Of a stretch of DNA of 5,342 bases, positions 2,091 to 5,342 are shown one piece after another. The position numbers were made by a program, and so were the translations under genes. How positions within the stretch are numbered: position 1 is the first letter of the stretch; every line of letters starts with the position of its first letter. This stretch comes from an uncultured Holophagales bacterium (GTDB lineage Bacteria; Acidobacteriota; Thermoanaerobaculia; UBA5066), in assembly GCA_937864895.1 (NCBI GenBank), contig CALMDF010000455.1, positions 1-5,342 on the forward strand, given 5' to 3'. The notes under the pieces were generated by a model, which was given only the letters and a program-made list of their open reading frames with translations, was not told the DNA's origin and searched no databases.

Positions 2091-3125
2091 GTGAACGTCT
2101 CGGACTTCGACTTCGACCTGCCCCCGGAGGCGATCGCCCAGCGCCCGGCGCCGCGCGGCACCTCGCGTCTCATGACGCTCGACCGGGCGACCGGGGTGTT
2201 CGCTCACGGAAACGTCGCCGACCTCCCTTCCTTCCTCTACCCGGGAGATCTCCTCGTCGTCAACAACACGCGGGTCGTCCCGGCGCGCCTCTTCGGGACC
2301 GACGACGAGGGGCGCCGCACGGAGTTCCTCCTCGTCGAGAAGACCTCGGACCCCTCGACGTGGGATTGCCTCGCCAGGCCGGGTCGGCGCGCGAAGGAGG
2401 GCCGGGCGTTCGACTTCGGCGAAGGCCTCGTCGGTACCGTGGCCGGGAAGGGCGACCCGGGGCACTACCTGCTCGCCTTCTCCGGGACGCCCCTCGAGGA
2501 GGCGCTCCCCCGGGTCGGGACGACTCCCCTTCCCCCCTACATCCACCGGGAGGGGGGAGTCGCCGACGCGCGCGACGAGGAGGACTACCAGACCGTCTAC
2601 GCGAAGGAGCCGGGCGCGATCGCCGCCCCGACGGCCGGCCTGCACCTGACGCCGGAGATCCTCGAGAGCCTCCTCCACCAGGGGGTCTCCGTCGCCTCCG
2701 TGACGCTCCACGTGGGGATCGGGACCTTCAAGCCGGTCAAGTCCGAGAGGGTCGAGGACCACCGGATGGAGGCGGAGCAGGGCGTCATCTCCTCCGGCGC
2801 CGCGGCCGCGATCCGGCTCGCGAAGGAGGAGGGCCGCCGGGTCGTCGCCGTGGGAACGACGAGCGTCAGGACCCTCGAGGCCTCCGCGCGCGAGCACGGC
2901 GGAAGGGTCGAGGCGGGGCCGTTCAGGACGCGGCTCTTCCTCGTCCCGGGGGCGGAGTTCCAGGTCGTCGACGCCCTCCTGACGAACTTCCACCTCCCCC
3001 GCTCGACGCTCCTGATGCTCGTCAGCGCGTTCGCCGGCCGGGAGAACGTCCTCGCGGCCTACCGCGAGGCCGTGGCCTCCGGCTACAGGTTCTTCTCGTA
3101 CGGCGACGCGATGTTCATCGCCTGA
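2091..3125 (+). CDS. queA: S-adenosylmethionine:tRNA ribosyltransferase-isomerase
   Basis: QueA transfers and isomerises the ribosyl part of S-adenosylmethionine onto 7-aminomethyl-7-deazaguanine in tRNA, giving epoxyqueuosine, a late step of queuosine synthesis. I start at GTG 2091 (344 aa) because VNVSDFDFDLPPEAIAQRP aligns with the E. coli N-terminus MRVTDFSFELPESLIA; the frame is open 48 codons further upstream, but that stretch looks like intergenic sequence. Family motifs: GDLLVVNNTRVVPARLFG (52-69), LPPYIHRE (147-154), YQTVYAKEPGAIAAPTAGLH (166-185), VTLHVGIGTF (204-213), VAVGTTSVRTLE (252-263), LLTNFHLPRSTLLMLVSAF (296-314) and the terminal YRFFSYGDAMFIA (332-344). No clear Shine-Dalgarno is present; CAGAAT (2079-2084) sits 6 nt before the start, so the transcript may be leaderless. 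It is divergent from the pyr operon and convergent with the thioredoxin-like gene, overlapping it by 11 bp. Confidence 0.96.
   Translation: MNVSDFDFDLPPEAIAQRPAPRGTSRLMTLDRATGVFAHGNVADLPSFLYPGDLLVVNNTRVVPARLFGTDDEGRRTEFLLVEKTSDPSTWDCLARPGRRAKEGRAFDFGEGLVGTVAGKGDPGHYLLAFSGTPLEEALPRVGTTPLPPYIHREGGVADARDEEDYQTVYAKEPGAIAAPTAGLHLTPEILESLLHQGVSVASVTLHVGIGTFKPVKSERVEDHRMEAEQGVISSGAAAAIRLAKEEGRRVVAVGTTSVRTLEASAREHGGRVEAGPFRTRLFLVPGAEFQVVDALLTNFHLPRSTLLMLVSAFAGRENVLAAYREAVASGYRFFSYGDAMFIA
2521..2562 (+). other. Inverted repeat inside queA
   Basis: CGACTCCCC (2521-2529) is perfectly complementary to GGGGAGTCG (2554-2562), with a 24-nt loop that itself contains C and G runs able to form alternative pairings. 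It lies in codons 144-158 of queA (around LPPYIHREGG). No function is evident, and codon choice in a Pro/Gly-rich stretch may be the whole explanation. Confidence 0.4.
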
Positions 3126-3672
3126 GGGCGCTCACCTGGGCCGCCCGGAAGGCGGCGCGAACGACTTCGGCCTCGGCCTCGGTCATCCGGGGAGCCCCCT
3201 TCCGGAGCATCCCGACGAAATGGTCGACCTCCTCCCCTTTGGACGGGAAGCCGACGTTCGTCCCGGGCCCGCCCGTGTTCGACGTGGCGATGGGGAGGCG
3301 CGACTTCCTGTCGAGGACCGCCGTGAACGGAAGACCCGCGTCCCTCCCCGCCAGCGAGTCGAGGAGGTCCTCGGCCCCCTCGTTCTCCAGGGCCTGCTTT
3401 TCCCCTCTCTCGAGGACGGTCAGGCCGACCTTCTCGAAGTGGCGGTCGAGGACCTCTTTCGCCTCCGGCGTCGAGAGGACCGTCTCGAGCTTCCGGCACC
3501 AGCCGCACCAGGAAGCGTGGAAGACGACGAGGAGGTTCTTCTTCCCCGATCGCCCGGCCCTGGACGCCGCGGAGAGGGCCGCGTCGGCGGCCAGAGGCTC
3601 GGCCACGGCCCCCGGCCCGAAGAGGAGGGCCGCACCGAGGAGGAGCGCGAATATGGGACGTCGTCTCGACAT
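3115..3672 (-). CDS. Exported thioredoxin-fold protein (CGWC)
   Basis: This is a 185-aa protein with a Sec-type signal peptide (MSRRR basic start, hydrophobic core about 7-20, likely cleavage after AVA at 22-24), so it should act in the periplasm. A thioredoxin-like domain follows: LLVVFHASWCGWCRKLE (47-63) has the redox pair C56/C59, and GLPFTAVLD (113-121) supplies the expected cis-Pro (P115) facing the active site. This resembles the Thioredoxin_7 type of thiol-disulfide proteins, which work in reduction or isomerisation of exported proteins; the exact partner is unknown. The ATG has no Shine-Dalgarno, but a promoter ends 8 nt upstream. Its last 11 bp overlap the end of queA tail to tail. 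The immunity-like gene lies 52 bp upstream on the same strand, but a separate promoter in that gap argues for its own transcript. Confidence 0.85.
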   Translation of the reverse strand: MSRRRPIFALLLGAALLFGPGAVAEPLAADAALSAASRAGRSGKKNLLVVFHASWCGWCRKLETVLSTPEAKEVLDRHFEKVGLTVLERGEKQALENEGAEDLLDSLAGRDAGLPFTAVLDRKSRLPIATSNTGGPGTNVGFPSKGEEVDHFVGMLRKGAPRMTEAEAEVVRAAFRAAQVSALRR

Positions 3673-3680
3673 GACGTCGG

Positions 3681-3709
3681 AGTGTACCCGCGCCCTGGGT
3701 CGCGGTCAG
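3681..3709 (-). promoter_or_regulatory. Predicted promoter of the thioredoxin-like gene
   Basis: On the minus strand CTGACC (3704-3709), a 17-nt spacer and TACACT (3681-3686) match sigma70 boxes at four of six positions each. The expected start of transcription, near 3674, falls within a few nt of the ATG at 3672, implying a leaderless or nearly leaderless mRNA. Confidence 0.5.
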
Positions 3710-3724
3710 CCTCCGGGGCGGACC

Positions 3725-4048
3725 CTACTCGCCCGAGAAGATCCTGAGGACCCGGTCCGCTTCTGCCGCCGTCGACGGCCTCCAGCCGGAGCCGAACCCT
3801 GCGCCGAGAAGCTTGCGGAGGTCCCGCACCTCCATCCCGGCCAGCGCGGCGCGGAGCTTCTTCGCCTCGGCGGCGACCAGCTGCGCCTCGTCCGCCGCCG
3901 CGTCGCGCCGGAACGCGCGGGCCGCGTCCTCGGAGTCGGCGTACTCGGTCGTCCAGTCCTCGTTGAGGTAGGCGCGGAGGGCTTCCCGGAGGGCCGGGTA
4001 GCCGCGGGGGTCGACTGCTGCGGGCGGTTTCTGCGAGGTCGCGCTCAT
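3725..4048 (-). CDS. CdiI-like immunity protein
   Basis: This is a 107-aa protein with no signal peptide or membrane segment, so it is probably cytoplasmic. GYPALREALRAYLNEDW (16-32), followed by an acidic/helical stretch SEDAARAFRRD (39-49), a helix of about 50-70, and DLRKLLGAGFGSGW (76-89) with a short C-terminal helix, resembles the CdiI_2 immunity family, whose members typically read like YPALxxFLxxYFHQDWD near the N-terminus. The assignment is from memory of the family pattern, not a search. The ATG overlaps the toxin-like gene's stop (ATGA), and a strong GGAGG (4056-4060) sits 7 nt upstream, so it can be translated both by coupling and independently. The inferred role is to bind and neutralise the RNase-like product of the upstream gene. 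The stop is TAG. Confidence 0.75.
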   Translation of the reverse strand: MSATSQKPPAAVDPRGYPALREALRAYLNEDWTTEYADSEDAARAFRRDAAADEAQLVAAEAKKLRAALAGMEVRDLRKLLGAGFGSGWRPSTAAEADRVLRIFSGE

Positions 4049-4533
4049 CGGGAAGCCTCCGGATAGGACGTCAGTACGTAGTAGATCTCCGAGTCGTTGT
4101 TCCACTTGAGGACGACGAGAGCGCCCTTGCACGGGACCGGGGCCTTGTCTCCCCGTCGCAGCGAGCGGCCGATGACGGTCCTGCCGTCGCCCTTCCACTC
4201 GATGACGAGGTTCGCGCGGGAGCCTTCGCGACTCACCCAGCGGTCCACCCTCTTGCGGTCCGCGGCGATCGCCGCCGTGACCACCTTCTCGGCGGTGGCG
4301 CGGTCGGGGTAGGTGGAGGCGGCGGAAATGCGGGAGTCCTTCTGAAGGCGCTCCCGGAGCTGGGCGTCGGTCAGTCCGACGTGGCGGGAGAGGGTGTGCC
4401 CGCCCCTCTTCTCGTCACGGGCGAGGTCTCTCGGTTGGGCGCCGTCCGCCGGGATCGTGGCTCCGGCTGCCGTGGCGAGCGCGAGGAGGAGGAGGATCGT
4501 AGAGCGGAGGGACGGGGGGAGGCAAAGACGCAC
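4045..4533 (-). CDS. Small exported RNase A-like toxin (CdiA-CT type)
   Basis: This is a 162-aa protein from GTG 4533. Residues 1-10 are a positively charged start and 11-24 (STILLLLALATAAG) a hydrophobic core, together a likely Sec signal peptide with cleavage near 25 or 32. The rest (about 43-159) matches the bacterial RNase A-like toxin domain found at the C-terminus of CdiA proteins: RGGHTLSRHVGLTDAQLRERL (43-63), SRISAASTYPDRATAE (67-82), VIGRSLRRG (120-128) and IYYVLTSYP (150-158). In the Yersinia kristensenii toxin the reported catalytic residues are H175, R186, T276 and Y278; here H51, R62, T155 and Y157 keep the 11-residue and 2-residue spacings, with 104 instead of 101 residues between His and Thr. 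No other in-frame start gives a signal peptide. There is no Shine-Dalgarno; TAACCT (4541-4546) lies 7 nt upstream. About 160 bp upstream show no gene. It is followed by an overlapping immunity-like gene. It could instead be a secreted housekeeping ribonuclease. Confidence 0.8.
   Translation of the reverse strand: MRLCLPPSLRSTILLLLALATAAGATIPADGAQPRDLARDEKRGGHTLSRHVGLTDAQLRERLQKDSRISAASTYPDRATAEKVVTAAIAADRKRVDRWVSREGSRANLVIEWKGDGRTVIGRSLRRGDKAPVPCKGALVVLKWNNDSEIYYVLTSYPEASR
4056..4060 (-). promoter_or_regulatory. Strong ribosome binding site of the immunity gene
   Basis: GGAGG on the minus strand lies 7 nt before the immunity ATG, inside the last codons of the toxin-like gene. The toxin gene itself has a GTG start and no such site, so more immunity protein than toxin would be expected from one mRNA. 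Confidence 0.7.
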
Positions 4534-4694
4534 GAGGCGGAGGTTAGCCGAAGCGTGACCTTTGCGCCCGTCGCCCGTGATCCGGGGACGAACGGCCCCC
4601 CATGCTCGACCGGCCGCTCCGTTTCGACCTCCTCGCGGCCGCCGCCACCATCCTCGGCCTCGTTCTCTCCAATTCGGCTCTCGTCCGCAACGGG

Positions 4695-4868
4695 CTATTT
4701 CCGGCGGCTCCGGCCGCGACCCCGCCCGGCGCCGGCGGGGGGCTTCGTCCTGCGGGGAGGAGCCTCGACCGATGCCGGGGCGTCTCCGAGAACGGTCTTG
4801 AGGGGGCAGATCGGGAGGGCGGGGCATTTCCCGCACCCGACGGCGAGGGCGATTGGGCAGAGCGTCAT
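4695..4868 (-). CDS. Short Cys-rich protein, unknown function
   Basis: This is a 57-codon ORF from ATG 4868 to TAG 4695, preceded by AAGGAG (4876-4881) at an ideal 7 nt. The first half, MTLCPIALAVGCGKCPALPI followed by CPLKTVLGD, has four cysteines (C4, C12, C15, C21) in the pattern C-x7-C-x2-C-x5-C, each of the last two followed by Pro; this could bind a metal or an iron-sulfur cluster. Codons in this half are mostly G/C-ending. The second half (about 30-57) is Pro/Arg/Lys/Gly-rich and probably disordered. I have an uncertain memory of similar ~30-50 aa cysteine proteins (MxLCPIA...GCKKCP...CPLK) in other bacteria, which supports a real gene, but I cannot name a function. A promoter and hairpin lie just upstream. 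Confidence 0.6.
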   Translation of the reverse strand: MTLCPIALAVGCGKCPALPICPLKTVLGDAPASVEAPPRRTKPPAGAGRGRGRSRRK

Positions 4869-4875
4869 CGCGGCT

Positions 4876-4881
4876 CTCCTT
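4876..4881 (-). promoter_or_regulatory. Ribosome binding site of the Cys-rich ORF
   Basis: AAGGAG lies 7 nt before ATG 4868, the clearest ribosome binding site in the right half of the window. It starts one nt after the base of a hairpin, so the hairpin does not directly cover it. It is the main reason for calling this short ORF a gene. Confidence 0.65.
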
Positions 4882-4908
4882 CCCCGGGACGTTCGCGGAA
4901 CGCCGGGG
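4882..4908 (-). promoter_or_regulatory. Stem-loop between propeller gene and Cys-rich ORF
   Basis: CCGGGG and CCCCGG at the outer ends plus CGTTC/GAACG inside form an 11-bp stem with a 2-nt bulge (4888-4889) and a CGC triloop (4895-4897). There is no T-run after it on the minus strand, so it is a poor intrinsic terminator. If the promoter at 4917-4946 is used, the transcript would begin almost at the foot of the stem, which would suit a 5'-end stabilising or regulatory structure. Confidence 0.5.
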
Positions 4909-4916
4909 GTTCTCGT

Positions 4917-4946
4917 CTCATATCACGTCGCGCCCGGTCCTCTCAG
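4917..4946 (-). promoter_or_regulatory. Predicted extended -10 promoter of the Cys-rich ORF
   Basis: On the minus strand TGATATGAG gives an extended -10 (TG-n-TATGAG, hexamer 4917-4922); CTGAGA (4941-4946) lies 18 nt upstream as a four-of-six -35. Transcription would start near 4910. The -35 overlaps the stop codon of the propeller-like gene. No better promoter was seen for the downstream toxin gene, so read-through from here is possible. Confidence 0.4.
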
Positions 4947-5342
4947 CGATTCGGGCCGAGCTCCACCGAACGCGAGAGGAGCGGCGGACCGTCGAGGAGC
5001 CGGCTCTCGTAGCGGACGAGCTCGCCCTTCGTCGTCCCCGCCCACAGCGAGCCGTCGGGAAGGAGGGTGGCCGTCTGGAGTCCCGAGCCCGTCTGCCGGC
5101 CCGACCACGCGCGGTACGAGAGAGTTCGCCGGCCGGAGGCGTCGGGGAGGAGGGCCGCGAAGGCGTAGCGCGAGACGCCGTCCAGCCCCACGGCGATCAC
5201 CTCGTCCCTCTCCGGGACCGGAACGACCCACATCGCGTCGAGCCCGGCAGCGTCGAGCGGAACGAACGCTCCCGACGCGAGGTCGAAGGCGGAAAGACCC
5301 GACGGGTAGATCCCGGCCGCGACGACCAGGCCGAGGCGCGGG
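4943..5342 (-). CDS. C-terminal part of a beta-propeller-like protein
   Basis: The frame is open from the right edge to TGA at 4943, giving 132 residues; the N-terminus is outside the window. The sequence alternates short beta-type stretches with turns: GLVVAAGIYPSGLSAFDLASG, then a segment with MWVVPVPERDEVIAVGLDG, then LQTATLLPDGSLWAGTTKGELVRYE. Such repeating 'value / DG or SG turn / hydrophobic strand' blocks are typical of beta-propeller blades, as in sensor or ligand-binding propellers. An internal ATG at 5233 could start a 96-aa product, but the open frame upstream has the same character, so a longer protein is more likely. No catalytic residues can be recognised and no function is claimed. 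Confidence 0.6.
   Translation of the reverse strand, partial: PRLGLVVAAGIYPSGLSAFDLASGAFVPLDAAGLDAMWVVPVPERDEVIAVGLDGVSRYAFAALLPDASGRRTLSYRAWSGRQTGSGLQTATLLPDGSLWAGTTKGELVRYESRLLDGPPLLSRSVELGPNR

Follow-up and report, generated by a model that had tools for sequence, protein, structure and literature searches.

The window, that is, the whole stretch of 5,342 nucleotides analysed here, carries on its reverse strand a free-standing pair of overlapping genes, one for a small RNase A-type toxin with a predicted signal peptide of its own and one for a CdiI_2-type immunity protein. The pair is patchy across the phylum yet core in at least one genus (g244), and its two genes are under purifying selection, the opposite of what marks an arms-race locus. 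On balance, the pair probably works in the manner of barnase and barstar: an exported RNase would attack the RNA of neighbours, and a cytosolic inhibitor would protect the maker. The pair comprises the following features.

4045..4533, reverse strand: toxin gene P0001, for a 162-aa protein with a predicted RNase A fold; GTG start
4438..4533, reverse strand: predicted Sec signal peptide and short leader, toxin residues about 1-32, from sequence reading and a hydropathy scan
4060..4401, reverse strand: RNAse_A_bac domain, toxin residues 45-158, by profile match
4381..4383, reverse strand: codon of His51, equivalent to Ykris (Y. kristensenii toxin) His175 by alignment to 5E3E
4348..4350, reverse strand: codon of Arg62, equivalent to Ykris Arg186 by the same alignment
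4069..4071, reverse strand: codon of Thr155, equivalent to Ykris Thr276 by the same alignment
4063..4065, reverse strand: codon of Tyr157, equivalent to Ykris Tyr278 by the same alignment
4045..4048, reverse strand: ATGA shared by the toxin's stop and the start of P0002, read from both frames
3725..4048, reverse strand: immunity gene P0002, for a 107-aa CdiI_2 protein, predicted to be all-helical, with an N-terminus that is not hydrophobic
3794..4000, reverse strand: CdiI_2 profile match, P0002 residues 17-85

The coordinates and lengths of the two genes and their ATGA overlap had been given in a first-pass annotation of the window and are as read from the sequence. The mechanical open frame around the toxin measures 263 aa and begins at 4836; the start was put at the GTG at 4533 because many relatives are 157-162 aa in size. 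By profile match, the toxin is assigned to PF18431 (RNAse_A_bac; E 1.7e-30, 106.6 bits at a cut-off of 27, profile positions 1-113 of 113) and its partner to PF18593 (CdiI_2; E 3.8e-7, 31.2 bits, narrowly over the cut-off of 26.7), and the HMM search that the annotation had proposed as a check thus returned both families. When the Pfam scan was extended to E 1, RNAse_A_bac was the sole entry for the toxin, and CdiI_2 was joined only by a sub-threshold match to PSD5 for P0002. All eight related immunity proteins scanned pass the PF18593 cut-off (30.7-51.8 bits).

As had likewise been anticipated, the predicted folds of the toxin and P0002 match the RNase A-type toxin chain and the CdiI chain of one solved complex, 5E3E, the CdiA-CT/CdiI complex of Y. 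kristensenii. The two chains of 5E3E are also the only solved relatives found by sequence at E up to 1 (E 7.5e-11 and 0.025). The catalytic signature first noted for the toxin (H51, R62, T155, and Y157, with family-like spacing) aligns with the active site H175, R186, T276, and Y278 described for the Y. kristensenii toxin in passages of PMC9086364; the spacings are 11/93/2 in the window toxin versus 11/90/2 in the Y. kristensenii toxin. The four residues are invariant in all 39 loci with a toxin-immunity pair, and in a protein alignment of 49 rows H51, R62, and Y157 are invariant while T155 is present in 90% or more. We infer that the toxin is an active RNase and that P0002 binds it. The lone cysteine of the toxin domain, Cys135 (4129-4131, reverse strand), is kept in 35 of the 39 paired loci; the Y. 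kristensenii toxin is without disulfides according to passages of PMC9086364.

The window pair thus shares toxin family, predicted fold, active-site residues, and immunity family with the Y. kristensenii system, whereas the RNase of the latter is the C-terminal part of CdiA and that of the window is a protein of its own with a putative export signal. CdiA is a large protein exported by CdiB. A CdiB-like gene (PF03865) scored over the cut-off in none of the 14 genomes of the window's family, the window's own, 75% complete, among them; sub-threshold matches were seen in four of the 14, all of which are without the pair. Because a CdiA carrier and a CdiB transporter were both looked for and neither was found, the window unit is no CDI system (cdiBAI). 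The earlier description of the toxin as free-standing agrees with the single toxin match in its own genome, a 3.1-Mb MAG in 565 contigs, of which the window is one whole contig.

Overlap of the immunity start with the toxin stop was observed in 38 of the 39 paired loci, L025 being the lone exception; it measures 4 nt in 21 loci and 1 nt in 17. These counts use the immunity start nearest to the junction; a GTG is also present 6-9 nt upstream of it in some loci. Over the 38 loci with a usable start, hydropathy at the N-terminus of the immunity protein peaks at 1.23, so that strong hydrophobicity is absent there. The distances of toxins and immunity proteins are correlated (r 0.895 over 39 loci, a value reached by 0 of 2000 permutations), which shared ancestry alone can produce.

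The predicted leader of the window toxin has a basic n-region and a hydrophobic core, is without a lipobox cysteine, and reaches a maximum of 2.47 in the hydropathy scan, in line with the signal peptide that had been proposed for it. A strict lipobox scan was positive in 27 of 40 loci, a set that consists of 37 GTDB loci, the family loci L012 and L014, and the window, and in which 39 have an immunity gene. Among control ORFs, which are mechanical and many of which are not genes, a lipobox was found in 14 of 874, or in 12 of the 116 with a hydrophobic N-terminus. The lipid cysteine lies 33-51 residues ahead of the domain (76 in L035). The 13 lipobox-negative loci were sorted by eye into borderline cases (L017, L023, L028, and L033), unreadable N-termini (L026 and L037), a carrier-like copy (L050), membrane-anchor-like copies (L045 and L046), and copies that seem to have a plain signal peptide (the window, L015 and L016 of the same genus, and L014). 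In the window lineage the leader is hydrophobic, and both the lipid cysteine and the long linker are missing. In L035, L038, and L044, open frames of 561-659 aa enclose the toxin, and longer protein products are possible there.

The tree has 54 rows, 14 of 50 inner branches starred, an outgroup that is not one clade, long carrier branches, and an insecure root. On this insecurely rooted tree, at least seven changes between lipoprotein and plain signal peptide are needed when borderline labels are set to the nearest state and unreadable rows are left out. The first-pass annotation had the toxin domain detached from a CdiA carrier in the window's lineage; with such a root, with the stand-alone form spread over several Acidobacteriota families, and with a lipoprotein-like N-terminus in 27 of the 40 loci, this part of it is unsupported.

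PF18431 was found in 7 of 60 genomes searched, including the window's own; all seven belong to the window's family, which contributed 14 of the 60, and have one match each. The immunity profile matches exactly the same seven, as expected from the co-occurrence that had been predicted. None of the three outcomes named in the annotation as refuting was seen. In a draw of 396 genomes from the phylum, 17 have PF18431 over the cut-off. In family f21, which includes an Acidobacteriaceae copy (L023/L056), the toxin is over the cut-off in 31 of 250 genomes, at least one of these copies being carrier-like (G186/L054). Of the 24 genomes of genus g244 in this family, 22 have the toxin and 23 match the immunity profile; in the 22 genomes, to which all ten of good quality belong, the genes lie side by side on one contig. 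Of the two exceptions, G639 matches the immunity profile alone, and in part, and G636 matches neither. It is the difference between 17 of 396 genomes in the phylum and 22 of 24 in g244 that makes the pair patchy but core, and the pair is no stray fragment. One g244 genome, G644, is the only one of the 24 with two copies of both genes, one of the immunity copies having an internal TAG.

The 37 GTDB loci come from a pattern scan of contigs, which finds only relatives sharing one of two conserved peptide patterns; 34 are from Acidobacteriota, two from Dehalococcoidia, and one from a member of the Neisseriaceae. A search for similar cassettes had been suggested, and an immunity ORF lies directly downstream in 36 of the 37; the exception is the Neisseriaceae locus L050, which looks like a part of a carrier. 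In the Dehalococcoidia copies (L045 and L046) the toxin of the same pair begins with a segment resembling a membrane anchor, followed by a long linker rich in Thr and Pro; transfer between phyla is possible for them. Of 16 further loci from the phylum (L052-L067), 14 match the toxin profile, 12 of these with an immunity match too; L067 matches both profiles weakly, L062 and L064, with long frames, are without an immunity match, L065 matches the immunity profile only, and L066 neither. Long-frame copies occur elsewhere in the phylum, e.g., in a frame of 2510 aa in G335. The last ~84 residues of the database protein P0097 are identical to those of the window toxin and its first part is seemingly unrelated; this protein is probably a chimeric assembly. 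P0171 joins the C-terminal half of the toxin and the immunity protein in one frame, either naturally or through a sequencing error.

Of 194 pairs of loci whose toxins are at least 70% identical, dS was measurable in 156, which are not independent of one another; over these, dN/dS has a median of 0.15 in the toxin gene and 0.09 in the immunity gene. The toxin type is unchanged across genera, and no polymorphic tip was seen. No phage record matching the pair was found, and the 11 plasmid records that match are all distant (under 60% identity). With loci that are syntenic within clades in addition, a recent mobile arrival of the pair is unsupported. The label of weapon or defence module that had been put on the pair is unsupported in that form; polymorphic weapons would be expected to be variable and mobile, and the pair is neither.

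Several known systems resemble the window pair in part. With barnase and barstar it shares the toxin-first order and the monomorphic character; passages of PMC3482391 present barnase-barstar as an incipient form of this gene order in which polymorphism is not notable. The leader on the toxin and its absence from P0002 would fit an exported RNase with a cytosolic inhibitor, as in that system. The difference lies in the RNAse_A_bac and CdiI_2 families of the window pair; going by the Pfam scan, which returns other families, the two systems are not related by descent. SitA/SitI consists of a lipoprotein nuclease toxin with a disordered stretch past the lipobox and an immunity gene directly downstream (passages of PMC8546572 and PMC5562445), and the lipobox and linker in 27 of the 40 loci related to the window toxin are reminiscent of it. 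SitA of myxobacteria is a polymorphic protein, often encoded on mobile DNA, with ~375 aa of escort domain, whereas the loci of the window type are stably located and have a single toxin type with a linker that spans 33-51 aa (76 in one locus). The window protein, at 162 aa, has neither a lipobox nor an escort domain, and the unit is not SitA/SitI.

A free-standing lipoprotein family with the same domain has been named in NCBIfam (NF041883, RNase_A_lipo). Its cut-off is 200 bits; the window toxin scores 63.3 and all nine relatives tested fall short of it as well (51.8-81.6 bits). MafB2-CT/MafI2 of Neisseria combines a polymorphic toxin domain of RNase A fold with an immunity protein, but this toxin is carried by MafB and has ~12% sequence similarity to that of Y. 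kristensenii (passages of PMC9970974). Both protein families and the free-standing lipoprotein form (NF041883) are therefore already known; a description of a carrier-free core-genome pair in Acidobacteriota was not found in the open-licence literature, among the matches listed.

If the pair acts like barnase and barstar, synthesis of the RNase would come first, and Sec would export it in an unfolded state. The inhibitor would be translated off the same mRNA via stop-start coupling and would occlude the active site of RNase that is retained in, or gets back into, the cytoplasm, while exported RNase would attack the RNA of neighbouring cells. Export, outer-membrane crossing, translational coupling, and target are all putative here; a Sec signal peptide is listed as a default export route for polymorphic toxins in passages of PMC3482391. 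The explanation builds on the families, active-site residues, gene overlap, co-occurrence, and purifying selection observed, and on predicted folds. An action on other cells is favoured by what the domain is known to do, by the lipoprotein anchor of relatives, and by an inhibitor that is conserved and leaderless. Against the explanation count the absence of a receptor-binding or cytoplasm-entry domain from the toxin, the incompleteness of the MAG (75%, in 565 contigs), the patchy distribution, the long frames in L035, L038, and L044, and genome G639. Intercellular weapons are not usually monomorphic, vertically kept, and fixed in their loci as this pair is, and these traits would also suit a nutritional role.

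Such a role is the main rival: the toxin could be an extracellular or periplasmic RNA-degrading enzyme for phosphate or nucleotide scavenging, with the inhibitor as a safety catch for enzyme that has not been exported. We consider this conceivable, though rather unlikely. Barnase is a secreted single-domain RNase with an intracellular inhibitor, and purifying selection, retention in 22 of the 24 g244 genomes, a toxin without a delivery domain, and stable neighbourhoods beside housekeeping genes all agree with scavenging; an Aas-like (AMP-binding/acyltransferase) gene or citrate synthase is present in the fetched stretch of 22 of the 37 GTDB loci, and both are in 13. A lipoprotein tether on a linker, as in 27 of the 40 loci, would be odd for a diffusing scavenger, and the domain family is known from toxins (passages of PMC9086364). 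The two-gene overlapping layout and the membrane-anchor-like N-terminus of the two Dehalococcoidia copies would also suit a cytosolic toxin-antitoxin or phage-defence module in which the hydrophobic leader is a membrane anchor only. This is improbable, as the lipoboxes point to the far side of the membrane, none of the PADLOC models searched fits (best E 0.025), the toxin gene comes first, and the inhibitor has no DNA-binding domain by Pfam.

It is very improbable that the pair is an orphan CDI cassette, unexpressed and held available to recombine with a cdiA gene. The same two domains do form the CdiA C-terminus and CdiI in Y. kristensenii, long-frame copies such as that of G335 exist within the phylum, and solo toxin cassettes lie beside polymorphic toxin genes according to passages of PMC3482391. 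The toxin has its own leader, however, and selection on it is strongly purifying; ShlB/CdiB is over the cut-off in none of the 14 family genomes, and with one PF18431 match in each of the seven family genomes there is no carrier with such a tip to recombine with. Hardly any weight is given to a cargo effector of a type VI secretion system (T6SS) with its immunity protein, even though the sheath component VipB occurs in 10 of the 14 family genomes and the RNAse_A_bac domain is listed among Klebsiella T6SS effectors in a passage of PMC12469244. VipB is also present in genomes without a pair match (G003, G004, G005, and G013), and the incomplete genome of the window itself yielded no VipB match. 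A Sec or lipoprotein leader is not normally expected on T6SS cargo.

We tentatively propose that Acidobacteriota have domesticated a CDI warhead. It would have become a monomorphic RNase A lipoprotein on the cell surface, without carrier or escort, with a coupled antidote, and core in at least one genus; the window lineage would have lost the anchor and linker, which would leave a freely secreted RNase. If true, this would add a further mode of deploying toxins of the RNase A type to those that use CdiA, MafB, or T6SS. Bacterial RNase A-type enzymes have been described mainly as the tips of large delivery proteins (passages of PMC9086364). From a small exported RNase that a lineage retains as it does its housekeeping genes, one could learn how such a toxin acts in the absence of a carrier, and whether anchoring alone suffices for delivery. 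Since lipoprotein and soluble forms both occur naturally, what the anchor contributes is directly testable. P0002 may be a compact inhibitor of RNase A folds for laboratory use.

In the genus of the window (the window, L015, and L016), the pair stands between a regulator-like gene and, in this order, thioredoxin-like, queA, pyrR, pyrB, and pyrC-like genes, the names being inferred from Pfam domains. The thioredoxin-like gene just downstream of the pair (3115-3672, reverse strand) has a signal-peptide-like start and a CGWC motif. It was considered as a third part of the unit and rejected: it adjoins the pair only in the window, G001, and G002, and in the four other pair-bearing family genomes the best thioredoxin-like match is on another contig than the pair. 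Neither RNA families nor tRNAs were found in a scan of the window, and no sigma-70-type promoters in positions 3000-5342. The window, L012, L015, and L016 all have a regulator-like gene upstream of the pair that could control its expression; the homologue in L015 has Trans_reg_C and WD40 domains. The same-genus genome G003 has no pair, and its match to the upstream regulator (C572:3-1916) ends at residue 638 of 788 beside a contig edge, so that the pair may simply be unassembled there. In the window, the regulator-like gene is truncated at the edge of the contig, and its C-terminal end is what is present (4943-5341, reverse strand). The rest of this gene is probably the piece of a homologue (query residues 2-669) with which another contig of the genome, C269, ends.
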